The translations under genes and the position numbers were made by a program. From Bacteroidales bacterium (GTDB taxonomy: Bacteria > Bacteroidota > Bacteroidia > Bacteroidales > UBA1715), in contig JAGCOW010000054.1 of the NCBI GenBank assembly GCA_017642535.1, positions 1 to 59,700 of the forward strand: a stretch of DNA of 59,700 bases, in the 5' to 3' direction. Every line of letters starts with the position of its first letter. The stretch's first letter is position 1. Below are positions 2,350 to 20,850 of the stretch, piece by piece. Under the pieces are notes generated by a model, which saw only the letters and a program-made list of their open reading frames with translations, did not search any database and had not been told where the DNA came from.

Positions 2350-3774
2350 ATGTTCAACGGCTACTACAATATATCGGCAAAAACAGCAAATAAGATTTTT
2401 ATTGCAATTCTGGTTTTTGCCGCTATTGTGTATGTAGATGTTTCCTTTGTAAATCATTATCTTTTTAAAACATATAGTCTTGACCTGGGAGCATATACAA
2501 AATGTTTGTACGATTTTATGCATGGTGTTGTCAACGACAGTTTGGTATATCGGAGTGAGCCTGTGAATTGCTTTGCCAGTCATTTTGACTTGTATTTGGT
2601 TTTGTTTGCACCGTTTGTGTATGTGTTCGGCACCTATACTCTGTTGGTGATTCAAATTGTTTCAGTACTCGTTGGTGCATGGGGAATTTTTAAGTTGATA
2701 GGGTTATATACAGAAAACCGAATCGTTCCGTTGTTTGCGGTGGCAACATTCCTTTCGTTCTTCGGCGTGTATCATGCGTTCACGTTCGATTACCATTCCA
2801 ATGTGGTTGCAACGATGTTGGTTCCGTGGTTCTTTTATTTTTTCAAGAAGCAGCGCTATATCTGCTCCTCTTTGTTTTTGTTGCTTATAATTATCGCAAA
2901 GGAAAATCTTTCCCTTTTTATGGCATTTGTCTGTTTGGGATTGATATGGGATTATCGGAAAGATAAAAGAGCCATTTATCTATTGTTGATTTATATTGTT
3001 TTATCATTACTTTATTTTTTCTTGATAAACTCGGTTGTTATGCCATATTTAAATGATGAAGGACAGTCTCGAGGTTTTGTGCGATATAGGCAGTGGGGTG
3101 ATAGTTATTTCGAGGTTCTACTCTATTTTATTACTAATCCAACAGAAATCTTTGCGGTTTTGTTTGGGCATCCTAAAAAAATAGATTTTTTTGTTTGTCT
3201 TTTCTTTTCGGGAGGGATAGCATTATTGTTAAAACCGAATTATTTGATAATGATAATTCCTCTGGTTGTTCAAAAAATGCTTGCAAAGTATTCTCTTCTT
3301 TGGTCTATTTATCTCCAATATAATGTTGAATTTGCTCCAATTGTTGTAGTCGCAGTATGTATTTGCATTTTAAAAATCAAAAAAGAAAAACTTATGGATA
3401 TTATTATTTGTGGAATATTTTTGTCAACTATAACGACATTGATTTATACAATAGAATATGGAAGTTATAGACAGAATAAACAAAGAACTCAGATATTTCG
3501 TGCCCAACATTATAAACAACCAAAATTTGATGTAACTGAGGCATATTCATATCTAAAACAAATACCAGATACAGCATCGGTTTGTGCTTCGGGGAAATTT
3601 GTCCCACATTTGTGTTTACGGAAAGAAATATATACGTTTCCTAATAAGAAAGAGTTCGACACGGAATGGATGTTGTTGTACGAAGAGAAAAAACACATAG
3701 ATTTTTTGTTGAATAATTATATGGTTGTTAGCACTAAAGACAATTTGTGGTTATTACGCAAGAAAAAAAAATAA
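2350..3774 (+). CDS. DUF2079-family polytopic membrane protein
   Basis: This predicted inner-membrane protein of 474 residues has about ten hydrophobic segments. The early motif SLDLGAYTKCLYDF and the later ASHFDLYLVLFAPFVYVF resemble DUF2079, a family with a GT-C-like layout (compare the F-DLG-Y motif and conserved acidic residues in the first extracytoplasmic loop). GT-C enzymes use polyprenyl-linked sugars, but activity has not been established for DUF2079, so any glycosyltransferase role is inference. An in-frame TTG at 2329 is rejected because it lies in the -7 box. The gene opens the plus-strand glycan decoration arm and is followed after a few bases by an LtaS-like gene, suggesting one transcript. 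Confidence 0.75.
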   Translation: MFNGYYNISAKTANKIFIAILVFAAIVYVDVSFVNHYLFKTYSLDLGAYTKCLYDFMHGVVNDSLVYRSEPVNCFASHFDLYLVLFAPFVYVFGTYTLLVIQIVSVLVGAWGIFKLIGLYTENRIVPLFAVATFLSFFGVYHAFTFDYHSNVVATMLVPWFFYFFKKQRYICSSLFLLLIIIAKENLSLFMAFVCLGLIWDYRKDKRAIYLLLIYIVLSLLYFFLINSVVMPYLNDEGQSRGFVRYRQWGDSYFEVLLYFITNPTEIFAVLFGHPKKIDFFVCLFFSGGIALLLKPNYLIMIIPLVVQKMLAKYSLLWSIYLQYNVEFAPIVVVAVCICILKIKKEKLMDIIICGIFLSTITTLIYTIEYGSYRQNKQRTQIFRAQHYKQPKFDVTEAYSYLKQIPDTASVCASGKFVPHLCLRKEIYTFPNKKEFDTEWMLLYEEKKHIDFLLNNYMVVSTKDNLWLLRKKKK

Positions 3775-3818
3775 CATAATTTGTGGGGGAAAAAAGGATA
3801 TTGGCTATAAAAGATTTT

Positions 3819-6110
3819 ATGAAACAATACGTAGAAATGTTGTTTCGAGTAATTCTTATAACGTGTATCATACGTTTATTTGAGGTCTTGGTGTGTTGGA
3901 TACCAACAGGCGATATACTTTCCCGTTTTGTAAATAATTGTATTGGATTTTGTCAAGATACAACTATTGTTTTTTGTGTTGTGCTTGTAATGAGTCCGTT
4001 GGGATTGTTATTATTTGTAGCCAAAAGAAATCTGTTGGTATCATTTTTTCGGGCAATCGTGATTGTTATGTCAATAATTTCGATTTGTCTTGTTGAGGTG
4101 TATTCACAAGCAAGTTTTCCTTTAGATGGGGTGATGTTTCAATATTCGTTGTCGGAAATAGTTGAAATCATCCAAAATTCAATGGGAAATGTCTTTATAT
4201 CGCTTGTCGCATGTATTCTAACTTTTGCAATTTGTTTATTGATACTATTTGTAAGAAATCCCATGCCAGACAAATGGCAGCTCGTATTTTTGTTGGTCGT
4301 TGTTTCAGTAAGTTGTTGTGTTACGGTTATTTACAATGACAGTCCATTAAAAAACAACTACAATGAACGGACAAATAAGGTGGTTTATTTTCTTAGAAAT
4401 CTAAGGAAAACAAGAGCAAATGGTTTGGAGATTCCAAGCAAAATACATGTGAAAAAATTTCAATCCAATTTTCCCAATCAAAAATTTATTAGTGTACAAA
4501 GTCCGTTTCTCCATACTGCACAATATTCGAATTCATTGGCACCATTTTTTGAATTACGAAATGATATGCCCAATATCGTATTTATATGTGTAGAAGGATT
4601 ATGCCGAGAGAATTGTGGGCCGGGAAGTAAATACCAGTCTGCGACTCCGTGGTTGGATTCGTTGATAGAGGAGTCATTGTTTTGGCCGAATTGTTTCTCC
4701 ACTTCTCAAAAAACCTGTGGAGCCCTTCCTGCCATATTAGGAGCGTTGCCTATAGGTGTATCTGGTTTCATGTCATATCGAGGGAATGCTCCGAACTATT
4801 ATTCTACACCAAAAATTTTAGAGAAAAATGGATATACATTTTCTTTTTTGTATGGTGGGAATCCAAGTTTTGACGATATGGATGGTTTTATTGAGCAAAA
4901 TCATGGGAAACAGAATTTTTATGGAGCATTTAGTGATAAAGTTCCGATGACAACGTGGGGAATCTGCGATAAGTTTTTGTTTTCCGAATCGTTTTCATTT
5001 GTGCCTCAGAATGCGGAAAAACGAATAGATTTTTATTTGACATTGACAAGTCACCATCCTTGGGATTATCCTCAAAAGCAGCACTATATAGAAACGTATA
5101 AGGCATTGGCGAAACAGAATAAAAAAGAGATGAATCCAAATGTTGAGGCTGCTGCTTCGTATGTGTATGTAGATGAAGCTTTACAAGAATTCTTTTCAGA
5201 ATATAAAAAGCAGAAAGAGTTCGAAAACACTATATTCGTAATCACAGGCGATCATAATTTTAATTCAGATGCGCCATTAATATCTCGATACTCTGTTCCA
5301 TTGATTATATGGTCACCGTTGTTGAAGAATCCGCAAAAAATGAACGCATTGGTGTCGCATAGAGATATTACACCTGCAATCATAGGTCTTTTACAACATC
5401 GTTATAGTATAGAATCTCCCAATGAAGTGGCGTGGATAAACAGCGGATTGGATACTTCGAAGAATTATCGCGGTCAAACATTCTCTCCATTGATTGATCC
5501 AGCAAGAAATATCATCGGGATCTTGTATCATGATTACTTTATTCAAAAAAATGAAGTGTATCAAATAGATAGTACGTTGAATTTGAGGAAAGAGAATAAT
5601 GTGTCTGTGAATAAAAAACTACAGGAATTATACTCTTTGTATAAAGAATTGGATGTGTATGTGTGTTCTCAAAATGCCTTGATTGAAAATGGCTTGTCGG
5701 ATATAGAGCAAACTGTAATTATTGATACGACATTCTTTGTTGATAGTCTTAATCCATCAAAAGAGTTTGTTGCGGTTTTTCGGACGCCATTAGCTTTACA
5801 AAAGAAAAATGTATATATAGACTTTAGTGCTGAAATTTGTAATCGAACGGCAAACGAGGCGGAACGAAACTTATATTTTGTGTATGGTGTTCGCGATAAA
5901 GAAGCCGGAACGTTAGTATATAAATCGAATAAGATACGTTTTAACCAAGATGATCCTCAAAGCGAGATAGTGTTCCAATATAAAGGCAGGGATTTGGACT
6001 TGGCCCCATTTGCGAATCAGGGAAATGAATTGTTTATGTATATATGGAATCGATGTGGATTGAACTTTAATTATAAAGATGTCCAACTCAAATTGTATGA
6101 TTGTGAATAA
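3819..6110 (+). CDS. LtaS/OpgB-like sulfatase-fold transferase with extra C-terminal domain
   Basis: This is an inner-membrane enzyme of the alkaline-phosphatase superfamily. The N-terminus carries about five membrane segments, followed by a sulfatase domain facing the periplasm. Visible active-site elements are the metal-ligand motif NIVFICVEG, the putative threonine nucleophile in STSQKTCGALPAIL, a conserved TSHHPW, and TGDHN. Relatives transfer phosphoglycerol (LtaS, OpgB) or phosphoethanolamine. A Gram-negative Bacteroidetes cell has no lipoteichoic acid, so the acceptor here is unknown. After the sulfatase domain there are about 180 extra residues, beta-rich, ending GNELFMYIWN and KDVQLKLYD, which resemble the C-terminus of the acyltransferase at 14863-16428. 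A GTG at 3783 would add 12 residues and remains possible. The gene overlaps the following paralogue. Confidence 0.85.
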   Translation: MKQYVEMLFRVILITCIIRLFEVLVCWIPTGDILSRFVNNCIGFCQDTTIVFCVVLVMSPLGLLLFVAKRNLLVSFFRAIVIVMSIISICLVEVYSQASFPLDGVMFQYSLSEIVEIIQNSMGNVFISLVACILTFAICLLILFVRNPMPDKWQLVFLLVVVSVSCCVTVIYNDSPLKNNYNERTNKVVYFLRNLRKTRANGLEIPSKIHVKKFQSNFPNQKFISVQSPFLHTAQYSNSLAPFFELRNDMPNIVFICVEGLCRENCGPGSKYQSATPWLDSLIEESLFWPNCFSTSQKTCGALPAILGALPIGVSGFMSYRGNAPNYYSTPKILEKNGYTFSFLYGGNPSFDDMDGFIEQNHGKQNFYGAFSDKVPMTTWGICDKFLFSESFSFVPQNAEKRIDFYLTLTSHHPWDYPQKQHYIETYKALAKQNKKEMNPNVEAAASYVYVDEALQEFFSEYKKQKEFENTIFVITGDHNFNSDAPLISRYSVPLIIWSPLLKNPQKMNALVSHRDITPAIIGLLQHRYSIESPNEVAWINSGLDTSKNYRGQTFSPLIDPARNIIGILYHDYFIQKNEVYQIDSTLNLRKENNVSVNKKLQELYSLYKELDVYVCSQNALIENGLSDIEQTVIIDTTFFVDSLNPSKEFVAVFRTPLALQKKNVYIDFSAEICNRTANEAERNLYFVYGVRDKEAGTLVYKSNKIRFNQDDPQSEIVFQYKGRDLDLAPFANQGNELFMYIWNRCGLNFNYKDVQLKLYDCE

Positions 6111-8097
6111 ATTAAAAGCAGATATTGTTCAATTATTGACTCAATGGGGAAAATCTTTATTTCAGGCGATACTGCTGCTTTTCTTGTTGCGTTTGGTTTT
6201 CTTTTGTGAACTTTTTATTAGACTGCACATTGAATTTGAAAAAATACTAATGGTAATTAGTGGTTTTTTCTATTATGATCTGTTGTTGCTTGCATCTGTA
6301 TTTGTAATCATAGCCATTCCATATTGTATTATACAACACATTCTTCCGAAGTTCAACGAACTTTTAGTGCAAGGATTGTTTGTGTTGTATTCCTTGCTGA
6401 CTGCATTGCTGGCGGAATATTATTGTGAGGTATTTCGGCCGTTGGATCAGGTCGTATTCGCCTATACGCCGCAGGAGTTGCTCGATACTGTAGCTGCATC
6501 TACCAATGTATCAGCCGTATCAATCCTTTTTCTGACATTGTATGTGGTTGTGTGGTATGTGACATTCAGATTTCGTAATGCATTGAAGCCGTCATTACAA
6601 ATAGCAGGGATATTCTTTTTATTGTCATGCATTGCGTTTTCTCTGTTCCGATATAAATCTATAATAAGAAGTGAAAAAGGATACGTGTTACATTCCGACT
6701 TTTTCCTTGCGGTAAATCAAGTTTCATACTCGTATATTAAAATATCGGATTATGTAAGAAATGACGGAGAAAAAGTGTCTTTGGCAAGTATTCGTGATGC
6801 CACAATGTGGTGGTGGAGCCAGAATAATTCGAAGGCGTATTGTGATGTGCAATATCCGTTTCTTCGAAAAAATACTGACGAAGATGTGTTAGGTTCTTTT
6901 CTTAATAAAACGAGTAATGAAGAGCCGCCAAATATTGTGATAATAATCATGGAAGGATTTGGACGAAAATTGACGGTGGATTCTCCACAGTATTCGTTCA
7001 CACCGTTTCTTGACAGCTTGGCACACGAAGGATTATTTTGGCCGAATTGCCTATCTACCACGGAACGCACGTTCGGCGTGTTACCAGCAATGTTGGCGTC
7101 GGTTCCGCAAGGCGCCCATGGATTTGCCAACCGACGATTTCCCATGGCGGAGCATAATTCTTTGTTGAAGGATTTGAAAAATAATGGCTATCTTGCATCT
7201 TTCTTTTATGGAGGAAGTGCTTCTTTTTCTGGTCAAAAGAATTTCTTACGGGAAAATGATATTTCGTACATAATGGAAGTCGATATAGATGAGTCAAATA
7301 AGAACTTTGATTTACTCAGTAAAGAACATCGTTGGGGACTTGACGACATGGATATGGTTGATTCGGCAATCGTCCACAAAAAAAGTGACAAGGGGATCAA
7401 GCCTTTTCTGGATATTTATTTGACATTGACTACTCACGAACCATTTGTTTTCGAAGAAATTGCCGAGTATGAGAAACAAGTGATGGAAAAATGTGGCACT
7501 GATACGAGTAGAGAAGCGGACATAATTAGAACACATAAAAATATTTATGCATCGTTTTTGTATAGCGACAATGCATTAAGGAGGTTATTCTGTTATTATA
7601 AATCACGTGAGGATTTTCAGAATACTATTTTTGTAATAACAGGTGACCACCGTATGGCACAGGTGAATGATGGGAAAAATAGTTTGCGCAAATACAATGT
7701 TCCGTTGATTATATATTCTCCTTTATTGAAAACGGCAAAACAAATGGAAGCTGTTGTGTCACATTATGATATAACTCCATCGTTGTCTGTTTATTTAGCA
7801 AAAAACTATCATTGTAATTTCCCTGAGAACACACATTATATGGGAGAGCCGTTGGACACAACATCGAGATTTGTTTCCAGAAAGAAACAGGATTTTATGT
7901 TAAATAGTCGTTCAGTGGAGGAATGGATCCACGATTCTTTATATTTATATAATGAGGAATTATATTTGGTACGCTCAAATCTTGATGTGCAGAGATACGA
8001 AAATGAACGGGAAAAGGAAAGAATGAAAGATGAACGAGCAATGTTCCAGTCATTGAGTGTATATACTGTGGATAATAATTATTTGAAAAAACCGTAA
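6097..8097 (+). CDS. LtaS/OpgB-like sulfatase-fold transferase, second copy
   Basis: This is a paralogue of the preceding gene with the same plan of about five N-terminal membrane helices followed by a periplasmic sulfatase domain. The active-site series is intact: NIVIIIMEG, a threonine in STTERTFGVLPAML, LTTHEPF, and TGDHRM. It lacks the C-terminal beta-rich domain of its neighbour and ends in a charged helix. The reading frame overlaps the upstream stop. ATG codons at 6079 and 6097 are both possible, and I chose 6097, which leaves a 14-base overlap typical of translational coupling. The likely role is transfer of a phospho-substituent to a cell-envelope glycan. The substrate is unknown. 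Confidence 0.83.
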   Translation: MIVNKLKADIVQLLTQWGKSLFQAILLLFLLRLVFFCELFIRLHIEFEKILMVISGFFYYDLLLLASVFVIIAIPYCIIQHILPKFNELLVQGLFVLYSLLTALLAEYYCEVFRPLDQVVFAYTPQELLDTVAASTNVSAVSILFLTLYVVVWYVTFRFRNALKPSLQIAGIFFLLSCIAFSLFRYKSIIRSEKGYVLHSDFFLAVNQVSYSYIKISDYVRNDGEKVSLASIRDATMWWWSQNNSKAYCDVQYPFLRKNTDEDVLGSFLNKTSNEEPPNIVIIIMEGFGRKLTVDSPQYSFTPFLDSLAHEGLFWPNCLSTTERTFGVLPAMLASVPQGAHGFANRRFPMAEHNSLLKDLKNNGYLASFFYGGSASFSGQKNFLRENDISYIMEVDIDESNKNFDLLSKEHRWGLDDMDMVDSAIVHKKSDKGIKPFLDIYLTLTTHEPFVFEEIAEYEKQVMEKCGTDTSREADIIRTHKNIYASFLYSDNALRRLFCYYKSREDFQNTIFVITGDHRMAQVNDGKNSLRKYNVPLIIYSPLLKTAKQMEAVVSHYDITPSLSVYLAKNYHCNFPENTHYMGEPLDTTSRFVSRKKQDFMLNSRSVEEWIHDSLYLYNEELYLVRSNLDVQRYENEREKERMKDERAMFQSLSVYTVDNNYLKKP

Positions 8098-8125
8098 GTA
8101 CAGAAAGAAAAACTATTATAATTCC

Positions 8126-8133
8126 TATTTTTG
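8126..8133 (+). promoter_or_regulatory. -7 element for the GH16-like lipoprotein
   Basis: TATTTTTG matches TAnnTTTG and overlaps the TTG at 8131. The ATG at 8152 follows after 18 bases. Confidence 0.6.
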
Positions 8134-8151
8134 CCGAATAACAGTTTAGAT

Positions 8152-10119
8152 ATGCGTCTCATTGGTAATTTGATACTTGGATTATTTGTCGTGGGCATTG
8201 TAAGTTCTTGCTCTCATACTTCTGTGTATAAGTTCAACCCAATGGAAAATATGCCGCAAGGCGACACTGTTTCTCTCGATATGGATTTGAAAAACGCTGT
8301 GTTGGAAGGAATTGTGATTCCGTCGAAGAATCAAACGACATCAGGTTTTTTTACGTTTTCATATAAAGCAGAAGCGGGAAAACAGCTGTATTACAAGATA
8401 TACTATCAAAACGAAACATATAAGTTCAACAATTCTGATTCGTTGAATTACGAGAATTTTTATGGCAGTTGGGAAGATGTTTCCATTGGATTCAAGCCAG
8501 TTTCTGCAAGTGGAGAAATTGTAGATTCGTTTCGAATTGTGGGAAATCCCCGTGATGAACAAAAATACTATGGTGCCGATGTGTCGAAATACGATGCAAG
8601 TATAGACGCAATCAAAACACGTGTTCAGAAAATAAAAAACGATACGGCATGGTATCGTTCGATAGTGAAAAAGGCCGCAAGCAACGGTTATTCTGTTGAA
8701 AAACAGTTGTTTTTAGATGCTCAATGGACAATTGCCGACGATCGTCATAAAACGGGTGAGATAAATCATCGCTGGAAACGGAATCCTCGCACGGGCTGCT
8801 ATTCGTTTCTTTTGGTTGTGTGTGACGAGAATGGATTGAATTCCTTGCCTTCGTATGTGAAAAACATAGGTGAAACAAATGAAAATGGTCAGTTTGTGAA
8901 TCCTATCGCATGGTTGGAGACAAATTCTAGTAAAGGCGTTCAGTTGATATATGGCTCTAAAGTTCTGAAAACTCGTGCGGTGTTTACGCCAAAACAAGGC
9001 ATTTTTGTTGATGAGGTGAATATCCGCACTCCTGATTATTCTTTGCAAAATATTGATTCAGTGTGTGGTACAAATGCCGACTTGTATGAAAATGCGTTGT
9101 ACCAGCAGTTTTTCCCCGCTGTAAGTCAGCAATATACGTTGCGAAACATTCCGTTGGTTCGCGATGTGGTTGCATTGGACGGATATTATTCAAGAAACGA
9201 ATACGAACAAAATCGTTCCCGTTTTGACTCGTCACAGCTTAAATACGATTACCCTGCAATAACGGAATGCCCTTGTTCCACGGTAAAAGTTTCTGATGAC
9301 GGAGAATATATTTCCATTATTAATCCAGGAAATGAAGATGCTAAAAACCTGAAAAAAGAATCAACGGGAATCAAGTCACGTGTGGGACTTACGTATGGAA
9401 AATATCGGGGGAAAATAAAATTCCCGGTTATGCTCAATCAGGAACATGTGTGGAATGGCTTGACATACGCTTTCTGGCTGATTTATCAGGATAATCATTC
9501 GTGGAACAATCGTCGTGGTTGCCATAATGTAGGGTATATTGATAAAGGCGATGATTCGCCAACGCCCGAACGTATGTTCGAGAATAAATACTCCGAGATT
9601 GACATAGAAATTGTCAAGGCATCGAAATTTTGGCCGTCGCAGTATTATAAGGATTTCGGAAATCATTCGGAAGATGCGTCGCTGAATAACGAGGTGATGT
9701 ATAGTTGCACGAATTGGGACTTGGCTTGTCAGCAACCGACGAAATTTAGTTCAGGCATATCCAAAATACCTTACAATGGCGAAAAATATGAGGCCATGCG
9801 TTGGAATGACTTATATAAGGCATTGACCATTAAAACACCGATTTCAAACGATGTTTTCAAGGAAGAATACTACTATTACGAAATAGAATGGAAACCCACG
9901 GAAATTATATGGAGAATCGGCAGCACACCTGAAACGATGCAAGTCGTAGGGTATATGAATGACGAATACACGTCGATTCCCAACAATCAAATGTTGTGCA
10001 TTGTTACGCAGGAATACCACTATTCAGAGTGGTGGCCACCTATCGTATTTGAACAAGGATTGATTCCGTATAACAAATCGGATATTGAAGGAAGAATTTA
10101 TGAAATTGTTATTGAGTAG
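8152..10119 (+). CDS. GH16-like lipoprotein
   Basis: This is a predicted outer-membrane or periplasmic lipoprotein of 655 residues, with signal MRLIGNLILGLFVVGIVSSC and lipidated Cys20. The C-terminal third looks like a laminarinase-type (GH16) jelly roll. It has YGKYRGKIKFP near residue 415, the catalytic-type motif SEIDIEI with Glu482, Asp484 and Glu486 in the E-x-D-x-E spacing, and YYEIEWKPTEIIWRIG around 570-585, which matches the usual H/Y-x-Y-x-[IV]-x-W strand. The N-terminal about 400 residues are unassigned and beta-rich. Many GH16 enzymes cleave beta-1,3 or beta-1,4 glucans and galactans, and some are encoded in exopolysaccharide operons, where they trim or release polymer. A stop-to-start gap of 2 bases to the MBOAT gene argues for shared function. 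Confidence 0.72.
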   Translation: MRLIGNLILGLFVVGIVSSCSHTSVYKFNPMENMPQGDTVSLDMDLKNAVLEGIVIPSKNQTTSGFFTFSYKAEAGKQLYYKIYYQNETYKFNNSDSLNYENFYGSWEDVSIGFKPVSASGEIVDSFRIVGNPRDEQKYYGADVSKYDASIDAIKTRVQKIKNDTAWYRSIVKKAASNGYSVEKQLFLDAQWTIADDRHKTGEINHRWKRNPRTGCYSFLLVVCDENGLNSLPSYVKNIGETNENGQFVNPIAWLETNSSKGVQLIYGSKVLKTRAVFTPKQGIFVDEVNIRTPDYSLQNIDSVCGTNADLYENALYQQFFPAVSQQYTLRNIPLVRDVVALDGYYSRNEYEQNRSRFDSSQLKYDYPAITECPCSTVKVSDDGEYISIINPGNEDAKNLKKESTGIKSRVGLTYGKYRGKIKFPVMLNQEHVWNGLTYAFWLIYQDNHSWNNRRGCHNVGYIDKGDDSPTPERMFENKYSEIDIEIVKASKFWPSQYYKDFGNHSEDASLNNEVMYSCTNWDLACQQPTKFSSGISKIPYNGEKYEAMRWNDLYKALTIKTPISNDVFKEEYYYYEIEWKPTEIIWRIGSTPETMQVVGYMNDEYTSIPNNQMLCIVTQEYHYSEWWPPIVFEQGLIPYNKSDIEGRIYEIVIE

Positions 10120-10121
10120 TT

Positions 10122-11537
10122 ATGGTATTTAGTAGTAATATATTTTTATTGTTTTTTTTACCTGTTTTTTTCCTTTGTTACTTTATTACACCTGTAAGAT
10201 ATAGGAATTATCCCCTATTATTGTTTTCTATTATTTTTTATTCCTATGGAGCGCCCGATTTTGTGCTTATATTGCTTTTAGCAACAGTGCTGAATTTTTA
10301 CATTGTGAAAGCAATGCTGAAGGCGACAACAGAGAAAAAAAAGAAACTATTTTGTGCGTTGTCTGTGGTTGTGTCACTCAGTTTGTTGCTCTATTACAAA
10401 TATGCAAATTTCTTTGTGGAAAACATAAATGCGTTTTTGCACGTGTGTAATCACTCATCAATATCGTGGAGACCTGTTCTTTTACCAATAGGCATATCAT
10501 TTTTCACATTCCAGTCCATTACCTATACCATAGATATGTATAGAGCGACGGCAAAGCCAAACGAAAAACTTACCGATTATGTTTTATACATCATAATGTT
10601 CCCTCAACTTATTGCAGGGCCTATTGTTCGTTATAATACCGTTGCCGAGGAATTGGTTTCGAGGAAATATGTCACCACGCAACAATTGGCAGGTGCATAT
10701 CGTTTTATAATTGGTTTGTCGAAAAAAGTTCTGATTTCCAATACGTTGGCGAAAATTGCCGACGAAGCATTTACGATGAATGTATCTGAATTGTCAACTC
10801 CTACCGCTTGGATAGGAATGTTGGCATATACGTTACAAATCTATTTTGATTTTTCTGGCTATTCCGATATGGCGATTGGTTTAGGAAGGATTATGGGATT
10901 TCATTTCCCCGAAAACTTCGACAACCCTTACACCAGCAAGAGTATCAGTGAATTTTGGCGCCGTTGGCATATAACGTTAGGTGCGTTTATGAGAGAATAT
11001 CTTTATATTCCGTTGGGTGGAAATAGAGTTTCAAAACGGAGAACATATCTGAATCTTTGGATAGTTTTTCTTCTTTCTGGTTTTTGGCACGGGGCATCAT
11101 ATAACTTTATTTTGTGGGGTGCATTCCATGGTTTTTTCCTTGTGCTGGATAGGTTATTTATGCTCGATTTTCTAAAAAGAATCGGTAAAATTCCCGCAGT
11201 TATACTTACATTTTTCGTGGTAAATCTTGGCTGGGTGCTTTTTAGAGCCGATGGTTTGTCAAATGCATTGGGATTTTACCAAGCGTTGTTCCACTTCTCA
11301 GGCGCGTTACAAATCAGTTTGGATGGAGAATCTATTTGTACGTTGATAGTTGCTTTGATTTTATCATTTATCACGCTGGCAAAATTCGGAGAAAAAATGT
11401 GCAACACTTTGTATGCCGAGGTTTATACGACAAAACAATCTATCATGTTGTTCATTTTCATTGTGTTACTGCTTGTATTGTCAGTAGGTTCATTGAGCGT
11501 TTCAGATTTTAACCCATTTATTTATTTTCGATTCTGA
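10122..11537 (+). CDS. MBOAT-family O-acetyltransferase (AlgI/DltB-like), copy 1
   Basis: This polytopic inner-membrane protein of 471 residues passes acetyl groups across the membrane for O-acetylation of an exported polymer. MBOAT hallmarks include PIGISFFTFQSITYTID, the block MGFHFPENFDNPY, WRRWHITLGAFMREYLYIPLGGNR, and SGFWHGASYNFILWGAFHG, whose His323 is the presumed catalytic residue. Length and motifs are those of AlgI-type proteins. The stop overlaps the ATG of the AlgJ/AlgX-like gene by one base (TGATG), so the pair is translationally coupled. The acceptor polymer is not identified by the sequence. Confidence 0.93.
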   Translation: MVFSSNIFLLFFLPVFFLCYFITPVRYRNYPLLLFSIIFYSYGAPDFVLILLLATVLNFYIVKAMLKATTEKKKKLFCALSVVVSLSLLLYYKYANFFVENINAFLHVCNHSSISWRPVLLPIGISFFTFQSITYTIDMYRATAKPNEKLTDYVLYIIMFPQLIAGPIVRYNTVAEELVSRKYVTTQQLAGAYRFIIGLSKKVLISNTLAKIADEAFTMNVSELSTPTAWIGMLAYTLQIYFDFSGYSDMAIGLGRIMGFHFPENFDNPYTSKSISEFWRRWHITLGAFMREYLYIPLGGNRVSKRRTYLNLWIVFLLSGFWHGASYNFILWGAFHGFFLVLDRLFMLDFLKRIGKIPAVILTFFVVNLGWVLFRADGLSNALGFYQALFHFSGALQISLDGESICTLIVALILSFITLAKFGEKMCNTLYAEVYTTKQSIMLFIFIVLLLVLSVGSLSVSDFNPFIYFRF

Positions 11538-13075: not shown

Positions 13076-13086
13076 CAAAAGAAACA

Positions 13087-14859
13087 ATGAAATTAAGAAA
13101 ATATGAAATATCGCGAATACTATTGTTTACTGTTTTTGCCGTAACAATCTTAGTCAAGTGTATATTGTTTCACTTGTTTTGTTTTGGTTCTCTGACAAAC
13201 GATAGGTTATTGGATGATTTCCAAGACTTTTTTTCATTTTTCATAGCCAAGTTGTTGCCTGCAGTTTCTATCGCAAGTTTTGTGTTTGTGTTCAAACGGA
13301 AATGGTGGATTGTCGTCATCTCTGTTCTCATTGATATTTGGTTGATGGCAAATCTTATTTACTATCGGGCGAACGATTTGTTTCTGGATGTGGAAACTAT
13401 AATGATTGCTGACAATCTAAATGGATTTGGCAGTGCTATATCAACGTATGTGAATTGGAAAACGCCGACATTTCTTATTATAACGATTTTGTTGTCTGTT
13501 TTCCTTGTTTTTACAACAGGAAAAAATAAGAGGTCATGGAAAGGTTTCGTAATTGCGACAGTCGTTTCGGTTGCCTTATTCTGTGGCGACTATTTTGTCG
13601 GCTATTCAACATACAAGCAGACTCCCGGTGCAGAGCCATGGATGTATTCTTCTTTCAAAACGGTGTATGAAATGTCGTCGGGAAGATTCTATTACAGCAA
13701 TTGGATTCGAAAACAATGGATGGAAGGGCAAACGCCGTTACATTTCGCTCCTGCGTTGTTGTACAAGAACTTTTGTGATGCATATTACAAAAAAACTGAT
13801 TTGAAAATTGACGATAAGGACAAAGAGGTCATAAATTCCTTTATAGATTTTTCGGCAAAGGATACTGATACGGTACGCCAAAACCTTATCATAATCTTGG
13901 GCGAAAGTTTTGAGAGTTGGGCATTACAAATGCAAGAAGACGGATTTGAAGTTACACCCAATATGAATGCATTGAGACGAAGGGAACACTCCTTGTATGT
14001 AGATAAAATCCGTTCACAAGTGCTTCGTGGCACTTCAGGAGACGGACAAATGATTATTAACACAGGATTATTACCGATTAGAGCTGGTGCGGCATGTATG
14101 TTGTTTGGTGAAAACGTATATCCTAATTATGCTCATAAATTTGAATCTTCAGTAATTGTAAATCCTATTCCGACGATTTGGAATCAACCTGTTGTTACAT
14201 TTTCGTATGGCTACAAGAATCTCGACAATTATCAATTCCATGGCGTAAAGCGTGCCTGTGACGCCGATCTAATGGAAATGGCGATAAAGCAGTGCCTGAC
14301 AATGCAAGAACCGTTTGCAATAATGATTATAACATTATCGACACATTCACCATTCTGGGATTATCCCCATTCTAAAGAAAAAAATCATTTTAAGGAATTT
14401 CCGAAATTATTCCAAGATTATTTGTACAGTATGCACTATGCTGATAGTTGCATCGGAGTATTCTTACAAGAGTTGGAACAAAAGTCTTTGTTGGATAACT
14501 CAACAGTGGTACTTACTGGCGACCACACAATTTTTCGGAGCAGTCTTCTTGCCGAAATGCAACCAATTGCACAAAAATACAATCTTCCAATCCCCCAAGA
14601 AGAGTCATTCTGTCCGCTTATCATTTGTTCTCCGACTATTGAAAAGCACACGGAAATAGATACTGTTTGTTATCAGATGGATATATATCCGACCATCTTG
14701 CATTGTCTTGGAATCAGTGATTATTATTGGAAAGGATTTGGTGCAAATCTCTTGGACAGTGCTTCTCCACAAAATCGGAAAATATCAGTCGATGATGCAT
14801 TTCGGCTTTCAAATCTGATGATTAGAAGCAATTATTTCAATGAGAATCGAAATGATTGA
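13087..14859 (+). CDS. LtaS-like sulfatase-fold transferase, third copy
   Basis: This 590-residue inner-membrane protein has about five N-terminal helices and a periplasmic sulfatase domain. The active-site series is LIIILGESFESW (metal ligand Glu), LRGTSGDGQ with the putative threonine nucleophile, LSTHSPFWDYP, and LTGDHTIF. It is more distant from the two tandem copies at 3819 and 6097 than those are from each other, and the RGTSGDGQ block resembles the LtaS sub-branch common in Bacteroidetes. It follows the AlgJ-like gene after 11 bases. Its stop lies 3 bases from the stop of the convergent acyltransferase gene, with no obvious terminator hairpin between them. The transferred group and acceptor are unknown. 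Confidence 0.83.
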   Translation: MKLRKYEISRILLFTVFAVTILVKCILFHLFCFGSLTNDRLLDDFQDFFSFFIAKLLPAVSIASFVFVFKRKWWIVVISVLIDIWLMANLIYYRANDLFLDVETIMIADNLNGFGSAISTYVNWKTPTFLIITILLSVFLVFTTGKNKRSWKGFVIATVVSVALFCGDYFVGYSTYKQTPGAEPWMYSSFKTVYEMSSGRFYYSNWIRKQWMEGQTPLHFAPALLYKNFCDAYYKKTDLKIDDKDKEVINSFIDFSAKDTDTVRQNLIIILGESFESWALQMQEDGFEVTPNMNALRRREHSLYVDKIRSQVLRGTSGDGQMIINTGLLPIRAGAACMLFGENVYPNYAHKFESSVIVNPIPTIWNQPVVTFSYGYKNLDNYQFHGVKRACDADLMEMAIKQCLTMQEPFAIMIITLSTHSPFWDYPHSKEKNHFKEFPKLFQDYLYSMHYADSCIGVFLQELEQKSLLDNSTVVLTGDHTIFRSSLLAEMQPIAQKYNLPIPQEESFCPLIICSPTIEKHTEIDTVCYQMDIYPTILHCLGISDYYWKGFGANLLDSASPQNRKISVDDAFRLSNLMIRSNYFNENRND

Positions 14860-14862
14860 TTC

Positions 14863-16428
14863 CTACTTCTCATTATAAACAGTAACAGAGGTGTTTTTTA
14901 TTTCACCAACAGAATGATTATAGTTCCATAAGTAAATGGAAAGTTCTAAACTATTCCCCCATTGAATGAATGGCCGAATATATCTGTAATGAATGGTATA
15001 ATGATATGAACCATCTTGATTTTTTACACCTTTTTCCAGAAAATATTTTTGCCATACGCGACCAGGAATTGAAAAGACAAGAATAGGTTTGTTGTCAGTC
15101 TCGTTAACATAGTCAAATTCTATATCTGTGCAGGTTTTATATGGCTTATCAGTAATAGTATATTTTGCAATACTCGTGTATGCTTCTTTTTCGGTAACGA
15201 AATTTTGCTGAAAACTATATTGTGGTTCAATTATTTCTTTATGATTGGAAAATTTAACCATCATGTAATAAAACATTATGTAGCAGAAAAATATGACAAC
15301 GAAAAGTAATATTGTGTTTTCAAGAAAACGGGATTGTTTCTTGAAGGTGATTTTGTTGAACAGAAAAGATAGATTGTCATATATTTTTTTCGAAGTTAAG
15401 GCAATGCCGATAATTGTTACAAAAAATAACACCCCTGCCAACAAGGAGATTCCCGCATTGTGGTAAGATGAAAACGTATCAATGAATGGGGGACGGAATA
15501 TGGTGTGTACCACAAAAATAATCATAGACAGATTCCCCAGGAAAAGGAAAAATGACTGAAGATAGTTTTGTTTCCAGCAGATAAGTTTTTTTAAATAAGG
15601 ATATGCGAAAAGAAAAATGATTGTTACGGATATAAAAGTAAATGGGAAACATACTTGAAAAAAATTTCCTAAAACAAATAACGCTATTGAGATAAAAAGC
15701 CATAGAATAGGAATTTTTTTATCTCTGTTTTGAGCAAACCAAATCCCAAAACAAAATTCTGGCAAATGTCCGGGAGCATTTTGCATTAAGGAGATATCCC
15801 TTAACTCGTGAAAGTAGGTGTGAGATATAAAAAAACATCCATACGAGATAATACAAAGTGCTATGAGGGCTCTCCAATTATATTTTTCTATAAACTTGTA
15901 CAAAAAAGAGAACAGTAGGTATAATTGCATTATCAGTCCGAAGAACCACCATGGCCCAACAACTTTCAGTCCGCTATTGGGAAGTAACGTATGAAGAAAT
16001 AACATCTTATATGTTAATTCATGCCATTCCAATTTCGTAACCAACGATTTGGTTGTAAGAATGGTTGATATAAAAAAGACAATGATACCCGTCAAAAGCA
16101 AAGGATACAGTTTCTTTAACCTATAACCCATAAAATTCCCCCACGATCGTTCGTTCTTTTTCATAGAGTATGTTAGTCCTACTCCACTGATAAAGATGAA
16201 TATTTGAACGCCGTAGTGACCAAGATAACTGAAAAGAATGTTGATTATCTCGCTTGGTTTAGACGTTAAAAGAGAAAAAAAGTTCTGAATAAGTCGTTCA
16301 TCAAAAAGAAATTCATTTTCCCCTGGTGACGGAGGCATCCAGTGGAAAAAGTTATGCATTACAATGCAAAATATGGCAAGACCTTTGATGAGGGTTGTGT
16401 CTTCTTTTGATATGGAATATGTTTGCAT
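14863..16428 (-). CDS. Acyltransferase family 3 (OafA/OpgC-like) with C-terminal extracytoplasmic domain
   Basis: This 521-residue membrane protein has about ten hydrophobic segments. It opens with KEDTTLIKGLAIFCIVMHNFFHW, and LGHYGVQIFIFISGVGLTYS follows; both are characteristic of acyltransferase-3 proteins, and the first includes the conserved His of the active site. Family members add acetyl or succinyl groups to surface glycans (OafA, OpgC). Beyond the last helix about 120 residues face the periplasm and end GNSLELSIYLWN and KNTSVTVYN. This resembles the tail of the LtaS-like protein at 3819-6110, an unusual sharing between unrelated membrane enzymes. It is the last gene of the minus-strand arm, 18 bases after the AlgJ-like gene. 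Confidence 0.83.
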   Translation of the reverse strand: MQTYSISKEDTTLIKGLAIFCIVMHNFFHWMPPSPGENEFLFDERLIQNFFSLLTSKPSEIINILFSYLGHYGVQIFIFISGVGLTYSMKKNERSWGNFMGYRLKKLYPLLLTGIIVFFISTILTTKSLVTKLEWHELTYKMLFLHTLLPNSGLKVVGPWWFFGLIMQLYLLFSFLYKFIEKYNWRALIALCIISYGCFFISHTYFHELRDISLMQNAPGHLPEFCFGIWFAQNRDKKIPILWLFISIALFVLGNFFQVCFPFTFISVTIIFLFAYPYLKKLICWKQNYLQSFFLFLGNLSMIIFVVHTIFRPPFIDTFSSYHNAGISLLAGVLFFVTIIGIALTSKKIYDNLSFLFNKITFKKQSRFLENTILLFVVIFFCYIMFYYMMVKFSNHKEIIEPQYSFQQNFVTEKEAYTSIAKYTITDKPYKTCTDIEFDYVNETDNKPILVFSIPGRVWQKYFLEKGVKNQDGSYHYTIHYRYIRPFIQWGNSLELSIYLWNYNHSVGEIKNTSVTVYNEK

Positions 16429-16446
16429 TGGTTCTGTCCGTTTTTA

Positions 16447-18177
16447 TTATTCCAAAAATTCGGGAATAATAATGTTTTTTTGTTTTATCTTATTATCCAA
16501 AATCCAGTCTGCATCGTCATAGATAGCTTGTTCCATGGTTTTATCATATTTTTTTGCCTTTTCTTTGATAGATTTCATTTGTTTTGGGTCAGACTGCATG
16601 TCTTTTATGATTTGTTCCCGATGAATATTGAGGAAATTATCTCGTGTAACAAACTCTTTGTTATCACGAAGCAATGGTTTTTGCAATAGCACATTTGTTA
16701 TTTCCTCTTGCAACAATTCATCGTATGATTTCCCTAAATGACTTGTTTGACAAAATATGGCAGTCTTCCATTCTATATCTCTGTTTATTTTGCGAAGAGT
16801 AAGATAACGGTCAAGGTTAGGGTTAACAACTTGTAAGACAGAGTCTTTTAACAATTCTGGGAACGCAACTGCAACGTTTCTTAATAATTCATCGGTTTTT
16901 TTCTTCAGTTTATATTCAAATTGTTTTTTATTGTTATTGCAAAAAACAGTGTCACGTCGCAAACTATCTGAAATTTCCTTTCGTCTTTGCTTTTGCCGAT
17001 CCTGGCTCACACAAAGACTAATGAGAGCGTCCTCTATAAAATTGTAGGAACACTTATATATTTGAGCCGCATTGGAAAGCCAAACAACATAGTCGGAACA
17101 AAGCACTTTCTCGGCATAGTCTATTTCTGAAATAGGTCGTTGTTTTTTATCATGTCCAATATACGCCTCCCTGTTGTAATACAAGAAAGTAAAATCCTCG
17201 AAAATCTCGCGTGAAGGAACGTAGTCCAAAATCTGCCATACAAAAGAATTTCCGACGAACAACGCATTGGGTTTGGAAACCGAAGAATCTCTAAGAAATG
17301 TAACGTCAGCCTCCTGACTTGTGTATATGCCTTTTAGATTCACGTCACGGACAAGGTTCAAAGCATTTTCTATATCTCTATCTCGCTCTTCGGAAAATTT
17401 GCAACTTTTGTGAAAGTTGGAATATATAATTTGAGGAAGACGAATGTTTTTTTGCTGCTCCATATAGCGAAGAATGCTATCAGCTCCATAGATGGCTGAA
17501 AAGTTCCAATGATGCCCGGTAGGAGGGAAAAGCAAGAAAGAGGAGGTATCCTTTATTTGAAGATAATATGGATTCATGTCAATATAATCCAATTTAATAC
17601 TATCGAATTTCTCGGTAAAGTATTTTCTGCCGTTGATACTTGTTGTGTCAAAAGTATCATCTGGTAGGTATTCAGAATAGATGATGGGTTTGTCGGGCAC
17701 GATTATCCATAAGAATTCAATGTCATATTGTTTTAGTAGGTTCCTAAACTTATTGACAAGATTTATTTCATTGTTAAACGCAGTTACGGCTGTTTCATTA
17801 TCCTTTTGCCAGCGAAACATTTCTTTTCCATAATAGTCGTCAACCGTGTGTTTGTAGAACATCCATTTCCCTTTCCCAAACGAAACGAAATCGACAGGTG
17901 TTTTTTGGTAAAAATCAAATAGATATTGGCTGTATAAACGAATCATTGGCTCTCTAAATCCATAATTCTCTGAAGTATATGATTCTAAGGTTTTCTGCCA
18001 AAGCCCGCTTCGGTAATCGTTTATTGAAAATTTTGAGAACTTCGTTTTCTCTTTCACAGATTCTCCCACTAACGATTTGAATCTAAATACCTTACAATGC
18101 TCTTGGAACATAGGTAAAAAGAAAAGCACCATGAGAATGGAGAACAATATCGTGGAATATGTAATTTTCTTTTTCAT
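16447..18177 (-). CDS. AlgJ/AlgX/DltD-like O-acetylation partner, copy 2
   Basis: This 576-residue protein has an N-terminal membrane anchor and a periplasmic SGNH-like domain, and is paralogous to the plus-strand copy. Shared landmarks are GKGKWMFYKHTVDDYY near residue 100, PTGHHWNFSA around residue 219 with the catalytic-type His, and VGNSFVWQ as nucleophile block. Here Gly again stands where AlgX has Asp, and GDS has become GNS. The C-terminus is a long charged, probably helical region (about 180 residues) with many Lys and Glu, longer than in copy 1. It begins at the stop of the MBOAT gene (TAATG overlap), the same coupling as in the plus arm. The acceptor is unknown. Confidence 0.8.
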   Translation of the reverse strand: MKKKITYSTILFSILMVLFFLPMFQEHCKVFRFKSLVGESVKEKTKFSKFSINDYRSGLWQKTLESYTSENYGFREPMIRLYSQYLFDFYQKTPVDFVSFGKGKWMFYKHTVDDYYGKEMFRWQKDNETAVTAFNNEINLVNKFRNLLKQYDIEFLWIIVPDKPIIYSEYLPDDTFDTTSINGRKYFTEKFDSIKLDYIDMNPYYLQIKDTSSFLLFPPTGHHWNFSAIYGADSILRYMEQQKNIRLPQIIYSNFHKSCKFSEERDRDIENALNLVRDVNLKGIYTSQEADVTFLRDSSVSKPNALFVGNSFVWQILDYVPSREIFEDFTFLYYNREAYIGHDKKQRPISEIDYAEKVLCSDYVVWLSNAAQIYKCSYNFIEDALISLCVSQDRQKQRRKEISDSLRRDTVFCNNNKKQFEYKLKKKTDELLRNVAVAFPELLKDSVLQVVNPNLDRYLTLRKINRDIEWKTAIFCQTSHLGKSYDELLQEEITNVLLQKPLLRDNKEFVTRDNFLNIHREQIIKDMQSDPKQMKSIKEKAKKYDKTMEQAIYDDADWILDNKIKQKNIIIPEFLE

Positions 18178-19643
18178 TAGAATCTAAAGTAAATAAATGG
18201 ACTGAAACCTGTTGTGTTCAATGCCGCGATGCAAATTGCAAAGGCAAGCACGGCAGCAATGAATACACATATATGTTGTTTTTTGTTGTAGTCGGTGAAA
18301 TATACCCAGTTCTGTAAACGAAGTCCCCACGGCGTTAGTGTGATGAATGAGAAAATTGTTGCAATAATCATTGTAACGTACACATGTGGATTGTCGCTAA
18401 AGTGGAACGGGGTAAAGTCAAACGAGAACAAGCGTTTTAGGTACATCCACGACAAATCAATTTGTTCTATTCGGAAGAAACAGCGGGTAAGAACGATGAT
18501 GAGGAACGTGAAGATATGTGCCGCCCAGTTCCCTACTTTTTCCCAGAATTTCACCAAGAATAATTTGTCGGCACAAATGAATATACCTTGCAATGCCCCA
18601 TATACCACAAAGTTCCACGATGCGCCGTGCCATAATCCGGAACAAAGAAAACAGAACCACAAGTTGAAATATTTTCTTCCTTCGGGTACGCGGCTACCGC
18701 CTAACGGGAAATACAAATAATGTTTGATAAACACACTTAACGTTTGGTGCCATCGTCTCCAAAATTCCGAAATGGAAATTGCCACATAAGGGTTGTCGAA
18801 GTTTTCGGGGAATTTGAACCCGAGCATTCTTCCCAAACCAATCGCCATATCGGAGTAGCCGGAGAAGTCGAAATAGATTTGGAACGTAAATGCGAAGATG
18901 GTAACCCAAGCCGTTGTACAGTCAATTGTCGCGATTCGTTCGGCAATGTCGGCAAGTTGCTCCGATGTGAGCACGTCGTAGTTCGACGGACCGAGAACGG
19001 AATCAACATAAAAACCAATTACGTCGGCAATCAGTATTTTCTTGCAAAGTCCGAGGGTGAAACGGTAAAAACCTTGCAGCCTGTCGGTCATAAGATATTG
19101 CCGTTCACGGATTTGGTCGGCAATGTCGCAGTATCGGATGATTGGACCGGCGATGAGCTGCGGAAACATTGTAATGTACAGCGCATAATCGGCAATGTTT
19201 TTCATCGGCTGGTTCACGTTTCTATATGTGTCGAGCGTATAAGTGACGCTTTGAAACGAGAAGAATGAAATACCAATCGGCAAAAGTATTTTTGTCCATT
19301 CCAGTTGAGCCAATTCAGTGAAACTGAGTAGGAAATTCACATTGTTCATCGTGAAGTTTCCATATTTGAAATAGAACAAAAGTCCCAAACTGATTGTGAT
19401 GGAAATGGCGCAATATATTTTTTTCAATACAGGATTTTCAGTCTTGCACATCCAATTTACAAGAAAGAAATTCGCAATGATTGAAAGTATAAATTGAATT
19501 ATGAATTCGGGAGCCCCGTACGCATAGAAAAAGACTGACGCAGTAAGCAACGTGTAATTACGAAACTTGTACGGAGTTAGAAAATAAAGAGCCAGAAATA
19601 TTGGCAGAAAATACAATAAAAAGACGTTACTACTGAAAACCAT
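18177..19643 (-). CDS. MBOAT-family O-acetyltransferase (AlgI/DltB-like), copy 2
   Basis: This 488-residue polytopic membrane protein has the full MBOAT signature set: PIGISFFSFQSVTYTLD, LGFKFPENFDNPY, WRRWHQTLSVFIKHYLYFPLGGSR, and CSGLWHGASWNFVVYGALQG with His339 as presumed catalytic residue. It opens with MVFSSNVFLLYFLPIF, nearly the same as the plus-strand copy (MVFSSNIFLLFFLPVF), and ends with the same FSPFIYFRF-type tail, so the two cassettes arose by duplication and then diverged. It is the first gene of the minus arm, with a good -7 element at 19672-19679, and is coupled to the AlgJ-like gene by a one-base overlap. Confidence 0.93.
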   Translation of the reverse strand: MVFSSNVFLLYFLPIFLALYFLTPYKFRNYTLLTASVFFYAYGAPEFIIQFILSIIANFFLVNWMCKTENPVLKKIYCAISITISLGLLFYFKYGNFTMNNVNFLLSFTELAQLEWTKILLPIGISFFSFQSVTYTLDTYRNVNQPMKNIADYALYITMFPQLIAGPIIRYCDIADQIRERQYLMTDRLQGFYRFTLGLCKKILIADVIGFYVDSVLGPSNYDVLTSEQLADIAERIATIDCTTAWVTIFAFTFQIYFDFSGYSDMAIGLGRMLGFKFPENFDNPYVAISISEFWRRWHQTLSVFIKHYLYFPLGGSRVPEGRKYFNLWFCFLCSGLWHGASWNFVVYGALQGIFICADKLFLVKFWEKVGNWAAHIFTFLIIVLTRCFFRIEQIDLSWMYLKRLFSFDFTPFHFSDNPHVYVTMIIATIFSFITLTPWGLRLQNWVYFTDYNKKQHICVFIAAVLAFAICIAALNTTGFSPFIYFRF

Positions 19644-19671
19644 ATTGGTAACTCAAATCCTTTTTACGATG

Positions 19672-19679
19672 CAAAAGTA
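19672..19679 (-). promoter_or_regulatory. -7 element for the minus-strand acetylation operon
   Basis: On the minus strand the sequence reads TACTTTTG, a perfect TAnnTTTG. It lies 28 bases before the MBOAT ATG. Confidence 0.65.
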
Positions 19680-19716
19680 ACCAATTTCTTAGATAAAACC
19701 TTTTTTCTACAGAATT

Positions 19717-20850
19717 TTAGCGTATAATTATAGGAAATGTTTCTTTCACCCCATCATAGGTTACAGATAGAATATATAATCTAGGTTGTAGATCCGAAAA
19801 GTCGAATGTGATTTTTTGAGCTAATAATTCCTTTGTTTCAAAAACTTTTCTTCCAGTCGTGTCAAATAATTGTATGTGAGTGTAAACTGCCGCCCCTGAG
19901 AAATTGCGGTTTTGTAAGGTGACGATCCCGTCGGAAAGACTGGGGGAAACTATTAATTGTGGCTCACTATATTGCAATGTATCTGTATTCATTATTGAAT
20001 GAAAATCATTTACGGCTCCGATTGCACATGATTTTCCAAAATATAATTCTTTGGAAAGAAAGGACCCTGAGAATCTATTCTCATAGATAGAAATTCCATA
20101 AACAGGAGTGAATAAACTTTCAAAGAGAGTGCAAGCAATAATGTAGCGCCCTATACCTTCGTCCATATGATAACCATCACGAGTGAGTGATTTTTCAGTA
20201 TTGAGTTCTGTGGAACGAGCGTTTTGTATTGCTGTTCCCGACGGAATAATGATGTCAATACCATATTTCTCTATCATTTGGTCAACCGTGGAAACTATGT
20301 TTGACCAGCCTTCCAATTCTTGCAATCCCAAGACTTTATGTCCTTCCCAGCACGACCATGTGAGATGCCAGCAAATTGCAACTTGTTTATTTAAACAATC
20401 TTGGTTAATGTATGAAAGCAAATCATCTAAAAAAGGAGAAAAAGTATTGATTTTGTATGAATTAACTGAAACTTGTTGTAGCGAAATTACATCCCAATGT
20501 TGACGAAGAATGTCTTGTAATGTTCCTTGGGTAATATCCATTGTTAAAAGTCCGGCTTTTTTCTCCAACTGTACTTGGTCGTTGTTCTTGTATTTGTCTC
20601 GCCACGTTTGCAATGACGAACCATCTTGCGTTACTCTATATAGGCAACACGTTTTTTCGTCTATGCCTGAATTACGGACGATATCACCAATATATTCGGT
20701 TACATCAACGGTGAAACTGTTTCCAATCATCAGGATACGTAATGTATCGCTTGGCAATGGGTTGTTTTTAATTGGAAGTGTTAATGAATTTTGAGCAAAA
20801 CCTGTTGTGTTCCAGAGTAATAGCCATATAAAGACAACATATTTTTTCAT
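19717..20850 (-). CDS. Secreted DUF4886/SGNH-type hydrolase with T9SS tail
   Basis: This is a secreted protein of 378 residues from the ATG at 20848-20850. A longer frame adds 14 residues, but MKKYVVFIWLLLWNTTGFAQ is a proper signal peptide on its own. The catalytic domain shows ILMIGNSFTVDVTEYI (nucleophile Ser in GNSF) and DGYHMDEGIGRYI, whose D-x-x-H places Asp and His of an SGNH triad; both are hallmarks of DUF4886. The last about 75 residues (LIVSPSLSDGIVTLQN... to PIIIR) form a T9SS-type sorting tail. It is probably surface-exposed or released, acting as an esterase on a glycan. It lies 73 bases upstream of the MBOAT operon, so de-acetylation of the same polymer is a reasonable but untested idea. 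Confidence 0.75.
   Translation of the reverse strand: MKKYVVFIWLLLWNTTGFAQNSLTLPIKNNPLPSDTLRILMIGNSFTVDVTEYIGDIVRNSGIDEKTCCLYRVTQDGSSLQTWRDKYKNNDQVQLEKKAGLLTMDITQGTLQDILRQHWDVISLQQVSVNSYKINTFSPFLDDLLSYINQDCLNKQVAICWHLTWSCWEGHKVLGLQELEGWSNIVSTVDQMIEKYGIDIIIPSGTAIQNARSTELNTEKSLTRDGYHMDEGIGRYIIACTLFESLFTPVYGISIYENRFSGSFLSKELYFGKSCAIGAVNDFHSIMNTDTLQYSEPQLIVSPSLSDGIVTLQNRNFSGAAVYTHIQLFDTTGRKVFETKELLAQKITFDFSDLQPRLYILSVTYDGVKETFPIIIR

Follow-up and report, generated by a model that had tools for sequence, protein, structure and literature searches.

A probable horizontally exchanged cassette of glycan-tailoring enzymes beside porZ in a Bacteroidales genome

The decoration of one exported glycan with several kinds of substituent is already known, as is every enzyme family discussed below. 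In the decoration of osmoregulated periplasmic glucans (OPGs) by OpgB, OpgC and OpgE, phosphoglycerol-type enzymes and acyl-transferring enzymes of the acyltransferase-3 (AT3) family act on one periplasmic glycan (PMC3818809). Both kinds of substituent are also found on one glycan in Bacteroidota: the O-glycan of Porphyromonas gingivalis carries glycerol phosphate with 0-2 acetyl groups, and the enzymes responsible have not been identified (PMC8729774). According to a 2025 review, it is unknown whether such glycan modifications precede or follow assembly (PMC12871550). Here, a locus with comparable enzymes is described from contig JAGCOW010000054.1 of a gut Bacteroidales genome (GCA_017642535.1, 2.78 Mb; G000), of which positions 1 to 59,700, the window, were analysed. 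The named close relatives of this genome are genomes of uncultured bacteria from the gut of ruminants and of a horse. The locus differs from OPG decoration in lacking OpgG and OpgH, in having a glycoside hydrolase of family GH16 and not GH186, and in its additional MBOAT-SGNH pairs. In P. gingivalis it is the glycan that is known, whereas the present locus supplies candidate enzymes. We consider it fairly probable that these genes form a horizontally exchanged cassette whose enzymes tailor glycans at the periplasmic face, and not a locus for polymer synthesis.

The genes of the locus, A to K, and the adjoining porZ, a component of the type IX secretion system (T9SS), are as follows:

A: 2350..3774, plus strand, DUF2079 polytopic membrane protein, putative glycosyltransferase using a lipid-linked sugar (Pfam E 6e-48)
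B: 3783..6110, plus strand, LtaS/OpgB-type membrane phosphotransferase with a C-terminal CTDX domain (PF00884 E 2e-25)
C: 6079..8097, plus strand, LtaS/OpgB-type membrane phosphotransferase without CTDX (PF00884 E 8e-30)
D: 8131..10119, plus strand, GH16-fold lipoprotein with the motif EIDIE (AlphaFold/Foldseek, motif)
E: 10122..11537, plus strand, MBOAT, DltB/AlgI/PatA-like (Pfam E 2e-31)
F: 11537..13075, plus strand, ALGX-type SGNH partner of E (Pfam 26.9 bits, cut-off 26.5 bits)
G: 13087..14859, plus strand, LtaS-like phosphotransferase (PF00884 E 9e-23; LtaS structure 4uoo E 5e-22)
H: 14863..16428, minus strand, AT3 with CTDX (Acyl_transf_3 Pfam E 2e-32)
I: 16447..18177, minus strand, ALGX-type SGNH partner of J (Pfam 37.1 bits, cut-off 26.5)
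J: 18177..19643, minus strand, MBOAT (Pfam E 1e-25)
K: 19717..20892, minus strand, SGNH-like DUF4886 protein, probably with a T9SS C-terminal signal (DUF4886 E 8e-42)
porZ: 20907..23237, minus strand, first gene of the minus-strand run (PF21544 E 5e-30, synteny)

The families and catalytic motifs were computed from the sequence, and all families claimed in the first-pass annotation are present, namely three LtaS/OpgB-type proteins, two pairs of MBOAT and ALGX proteins, one AT3 protein, the DUF2079 protein, the GH16 lipoprotein and the DUF4886 protein, whose T9SS tail is probable and scores 21.9 bits against a cut-off of 27. The two strands converge as described there, with 3 bases separating the stops (14859 and 14863). 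The porZ gene lies just beyond the range given at that time and had been overlooked. Gene A starts with the ATG at 2350, and an in-frame TTG is present at 2329. On each strand, the genes are near-contiguous and operon-like, with intergenic distances ranging from small overlaps up to 73 bases. Three of the six PF00884 loci and two of the three MBOAT loci of the genome lie together within ~16.5 kb, or 0.6% of the 2.78 Mb, indicating that the grouping is more than chance.

The same chromosomal site differs between close relatives. Within the genus, porZ marks the position of this variable locus: the window genome, G006, G007, G009 and G010 all have decoration genes adjoining it, with a different gene set each time. 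In G008, the locus is divided between contigs, consistent with the same place, and G005 has porZ without a cassette and its cassette elsewhere. Two segments of the window are nearly identical to DNA of another species:

3807..10119: most of B, C and D, 97.6% DNA identity (6.3 kb) to contig C144 of G008/RGIG7965
18096..19690: J, 97.6% DNA identity (1.6 kb) to the same contig

Between these two genomes, porZ shares 77% DNA identity and SufD 58% protein identity; the contrast between the 97.6% segments and the 77% of porZ indicates recent exchange between species. A misbinned contig was considered and rejected, as the adjacent gene on C144 matches the window genome at no more than 65-70% identity. 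In the G008 version, which lacks E to I, D and an ALGX gene are immediate convergent neighbours. Its B gene (L016:7704-10097) has an in-frame TAA in DNA that is 97% identical to B of the window, which means that B is dispensable in that genome or that the assembly contains an error. The first-pass annotation had noted no described Bacteroidetes system with this exact content, and it would count as refuted if the genes were not co-inherited in related genomes. For the whole set the refutation applies, as the content is not conserved as a unit and the window carries one mosaic version of a variable locus. For the sub-modules it fails, since these recur widely, for example D with MBOAT and ALGX genes.

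Since the porZ site is variable within the genus and is swapped by recombination, it likely makes close relatives differ in the chemistry of their surface or envelope glycans. As a selective cause we infer that such swapping may act, for example, against phages or host immunity. The species-to-species exchange at the porZ site points to gut bacteria swapping their envelope-glycan chemistry in the form of cassettes. E and J also form an inverted repeat (10803-11145 and 18571-18914 of the window, 72-81% identity over 130-330 bases) that flanks F to I. This repeat could permit inversion and is rather diverged. An invertible promoter or site-specific inversion was rejected, as long near-identical inverted repeats are absent at the edges and only E and J are alike.

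LtaS and OpgB (MdoB) combine N-terminal membrane helices with a domain of the alkaline-phosphatase fold that has conserved metal-ligand motifs, and B, C and G resemble them in this make-up. All three retain the E(S/G), (T/S)xHxP(F/W) and GDH motifs (metal-ligand and binding), which read VEG, TSHHPW and TGDH in B, and ES, STHSPF and TGDH in G. B aligns to VP1736 (3lxq) and to LtaS chains and C aligns to 3lxq, both with Thr at the nucleophile position. In G, the nucleophile position is Thr/Ser, and G is the closest of the three to Gram-positive LtaS. C matches the NCBIfam phosphoglycerol transferase I model with an E of 1e-12, yet stays far under its cut-off. In contrast to the known systems, three distinct copies are clustered in a Gram-negative bacterium, and B has an extra CTDX domain. 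Judged by sequence, B, C and G are probably phosphoglycerol transferases acting on an exported glycan; with a membrane phospholipid as the inferred donor, they would move phosphoglycerol, or a similar head group, to this glycan.

The acyl-transfer enzymes resemble the MBOAT-SGNH pairs PatAB, AlgI/J/X, WssH/I and DltBD, in which an MBOAT with a WHG His and a terminal FXYXXF is accompanied by a neighbouring SGNH/ALGX protein with Ser and His motifs. Both E and J carry WHG with the invariant catalytic His and end in PFIYFRF, which contains the FXYXXF acyl-shuttle hexapeptide (FIYFRF at 11517-11534 in E and 18180-18197 in J). This hexapeptide is terminal in all 57 of the 57 complete MBOATs of the comparison set. 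In PatA, the Tyr of FXYXXF passes the acyl group to the SGNH partner (PMC12148441). The motifs of F are GDS and TGTHW and those of I are GNS and TGHHW, so that Ser and His are kept. The pairs E+F and J+I may therefore be read, on these motifs, as two relays in which an acyl group would pass from acyl-CoA to the Tyr of FXYXXF, then to the SGNH Ser and finally to the glycan, with H as a putative third acyl transferase of the AT3 type. The locus differs from the described systems in having two such pairs and no linked synthase. With the LtaS motifs kept and the MBOAT hexapeptides in place, the earlier proposal of a module adding several kinds of substituent is strengthened.

CTDX is the label used here for a C-terminal domain of ~130 residues that is common to B and H. 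The features concerned are:

5700..6107, plus strand, CTDX of B, residues 640-775 (hhalign against the C-terminal domain of H)
14866..15255, minus strand, CTDX of H, residues 392-521 (hhalign against B)
L176:3621-5117, L230:5269-6768 and L231:3473-4972, CTDX protein of ~499 residues (no Pfam match over cut-off)

The two copies in the window match each other with an hhalign value of 97.6% (E 4e-12), and the controls, which were other domains of the locus and 20 column shuffles, reach at most 0.7%. No Pfam match was obtained for CTDX, and its profile gave no match among the PDB sequences. Within the order, it was detected in 70 of the 198 genomes with a 16-sequence profile (E 1e-4), and a sample of 295 other genomes spread over the phylum gave no match at E 1e-6, a stricter cut-off than in the within-order search. 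CTDX is joined to proteins of the LtaS type and of the AT3 family, to PMT_2 and further GT-C-like proteins, and to MBOAT-partner proteins. The GT-C-like CTDX proteins have 8-14 membrane helices, and five of them score over the PMT_2 cut-off. In two genera of one family, AT3, an LtaS-type domain and CTDX are fused in single chains of 1206-1207 residues (L180:1767-5387 and L218:3280-6903), with both catalytic domains over the Pfam cut-offs. Directly downstream of an MBOAT gene, in three of three loci, a single-helix protein of ~499 residues ends in CTDX. Its GESS and TEHY motifs are suggestive of an SGNH partner, and it does not align to the ALGX profile; it is possibly an unrecognised SGNH-like MBOAT partner. 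Tandem CTDX pairs were also observed, in L187:4314-6524 (736 amino acids, one helix) and L221:1876-4671 (931 amino acids, seven helices). A further CTDX, suspected by eye in a membrane protein of 681 amino acids in L020, was rejected (hhalign 0.1%).

The CTDX common to B and H, together with the existence of AT3-LtaS-CTDX fusions, is the best evidence that the transfer of acyl groups and that of phospho groups act on one acceptor. This gives independent support to the "one polymer" of the first-pass annotation. The domain may recognise the acceptor that these enzymes have in common, or hold the enzymes together, by which phosphate and acyl groups would be placed on the same glycan. We tentatively suggest, as something somewhat less than probable, that CTDX serves in acceptor recognition or docking, is confined to Bacteroidales among the samples searched and gathers chemically unrelated tailoring enzymes, and that the LtaS-AT3 set is the missing machinery for acylated phosphoglycerol. 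The enzymes gathered would be a phosphoglycerol transferase, AT3 and MBOAT-partner acyltransferases, and GT-C glycosyltransferases, with one class of envelope glycan as their target. If this is true, the LtaS-AT3 set, which is one polypeptide in some genera, supplies the acylated phosphoglycerol substituents of Bacteroidota glycans.

Alternatively, the enzymes could act on different polymers and lie together only because the porZ-adjacent site collects exchanged genes. The variable site, the demonstrated exchange, the opposed strands and the unrelated chemistries fit this explanation. It is nevertheless distinctly unlikely, given the one functional theme of the genes, the CTDX common to unrelated enzymes, the AT3-LtaS fusions and the recurrence of D with MBOAT and ALGX genes in many genomic contexts.

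One possible acceptor of a common set of enzymes, in favour of which the fusions count, is the general protein O-glycan of Bacteroidota, on which an LtaS-type enzyme and an acyltransferase would make acetyl-glycerol-phosphate as in P. gingivalis. The substituent of that species needs a phosphoglycerol transferase and one or more acetyltransferases (PMC8729774), and the timing of such modifications is unsettled (PMC12871550). A GH16 endo-glycanase, however, has no obvious role on a heptasaccharide, and no LFG-type O-glycan gene was identified in the locus; we regard this acceptor as unlikely.

The position next to porZ points to another acceptor, an anionic O-polysaccharide like that of anionic lipopolysaccharide (A-LPS), which would be handed by PorZ to the T9SS sortase and would explain the linkage of both porZ and K. 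In P. gingivalis, the phosphorylated mannan of A-LPS is bound by PorZ (PMC8545088); in the window, the minus-strand run begins with porZ, and the cassette adjoins it in the genomes listed above. Against this, when 40 porZ loci from other genera were surveyed, almost all of them in different families, only 3 had a decoration gene (control loci, 0 of 20); other genera of the same family have none (L023-L026), and the cassette of G005 is elsewhere. On the 3 of 40 loci, porZ linkage was rejected as a general functional link and retained as a genus-level feature only. We regard the A-LPS-like acceptor as unlikely. CTDX-bearing GT-C-like genes do occur beside porZ in three other families, in L190 (G112:C23), L095 (G103:C128) and L105 (G097:C11), and these few cases do not clearly exceed expectation.

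D is divergent in sequence, scoring 15.6 bits against the Pfam GH16 model PF00722 (cut-off 22 bits), and a PDB sequence search with D as a single protein gave no matches. Its AlphaFold model has a mean pLDDT of 86, and the top Foldseek matches are GH16 structures (4bq1, E 1e-9). The GH16 catalytic motif EIDIE is located at residues 489-493 (about 9595-9609) and is present in every D homologue too. D may be an outer-membrane-directed GH16 endo-glycanase or transglycosylase that would trim or transfer the glycan. Its homologues occur in 52 named loci in Bacteroidales. For those outside the genus with an identity of at least 53%, an MBOAT gene is found within 10 kb in 33 of 39 loci and an ALGX gene in 34 of 39, and these linked loci sit in several different housekeeping contexts. 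For comparison, an MBOAT gene was present at 2 of the 40 porZ loci, at none of the 20 control loci, and near none of the 11 distant D homologues (<50% identity).

These results bear on a beta-glucan-like polymer, either secreted or periplasmic, as a possible acceptor. Its tailoring would be the Bacteroidales counterpart of OPG decoration or of acetylated-cellulose or alginate tailoring, with D as a hydrolase or transglycosylase of the backbone. The invariant EIDIE of D and its recurrence beside MBOAT genes agree with this, as do the OPGs of E. coli, which bear phosphoglycerol, phosphoethanolamine and succinyl groups (PMC3818809). However, GH16 members cleave many beta-glycans, so that the motif does not fix the polymer; the distant D homologues lack a nearby MBOAT, and a Pfam search of the locus detected neither OpgG/OpgH-type nor cellulose-synthase-like genes. 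A beta-glucan-like acceptor is possible, though rather unlikely.

Several loci (L056, L060, L066, L053 and L063, around 11.9-21.9 kb) have rows of two to three MBOAT genes and several ALGX genes beside D, which suggests serial duplication of acyl-transfer pairs. In the Bacteroidales ALGX proteins near D (L034-L083), the Asp of D-x-H is mostly replaced by Gly (or Ser/Ala), and a minority retain Asp. A connection of D to an O-antigen ABC exporter was rejected, as the adjoining ABC protein consists of two ABC domains and ABC_tran_Xtn (an ABC-F make-up) and the remaining neighbours are housekeeping genes.

The first-pass annotation had described the locus as being without glycosyltransferases, which has become doubtful. 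The DUF2079 profile of A matches PMT_2-type GT-C proteins (hhalign 94.7%, E 6e-8) and reaches at most 0.4% with MBOAT, AT3 and the membrane part of LtaS proteins. An Asp of A in its first loop is also conserved (D52 in the 481-amino-acid numbering). An AlphaFold model of A, built from five sequences, was too poor (pLDDT 54) and was not used, and the profile comparison was relied on instead; a PDB sequence search with the DUF2079 protein as a single protein gave no matches. Because DUF2079 is GT-C-like, the locus is probably not glycosyltransferase-free, and A may transfer a sugar that a lipid-linked donor supplies. In sister genomes, the equivalent site holds GtrA, GT2, DUF6056 and additional AT3 genes, with GtrA and GT2 in the G006 locus and GtrA in the G007 locus. 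This content, which varies between relatives, resembles the Gtr-type O-antigen loci (GtrA-GtrB-GT-C, AT3). The window version differs in having neither GtrA nor GtrB in the locus; the cluster of GtrA, GtrB and GT-C is absent there, and a single GtrA was found in the genome, on contig C54. In G007, GT1, GT2, AT3, MBOAT and epimerase genes form a classical glycan cluster that also includes a relative of G (43% identity; L031).

Several observations weigh against a glycan-tailoring cassette with a common acceptor. B, C and G stay far under the NCBIfam cut-offs for LtaS and OpgB, in contrast to the described enzymes, with best equivalog scores of 141 bits against 970 (LtaS) and 47.5 against 572 (phosphoglycerol transferase I). 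Because these curated cut-offs are missed, the three proteins are called LtaS/OpgB-type and not proven phosphoglycerol transferases. The LtaS fold also covers phosphoethanolamine transferases and hydrolases. In both F and I, Gly replaces the Asp of D-x-H, a further difference from the known MBOAT-SGNH pairs, and acyl transfer could be impaired as a result. Within the locus, CTDX is present only on B and H, and C, G, F, I and A have none. Finally, no genes for acceptor synthesis are linked to the cassette within the window.

The literature searched, which comprised open-licence papers only, contained neither the combination of genes in the cassette nor CTDX nor the AT3-LtaS fusion, and all three appear to be undescribed. 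The locus and its relatives offer candidate enzymes for the addition of phosphoglycerol and acetyl groups to Bacteroidota glycans; these enzymes would work at the periplasmic face, on glycans already exported. A single, directly testable protein is available in the AT3-LtaS-CTDX fusion, and CTDX offers a handle for collecting glycan-tailoring enzymes across Bacteroidales.

Other features of the window were noted outside the cassette. Positions 25008-33929 form a single open frame of 2973 residues beside a T9SS-tailed protein (23351-24817). A weak match to NAGPA (phosphodiester glycosidase), below the cut-off, is located at 51677-52540, close to two large proteins with no Pfam match (52939-56014).

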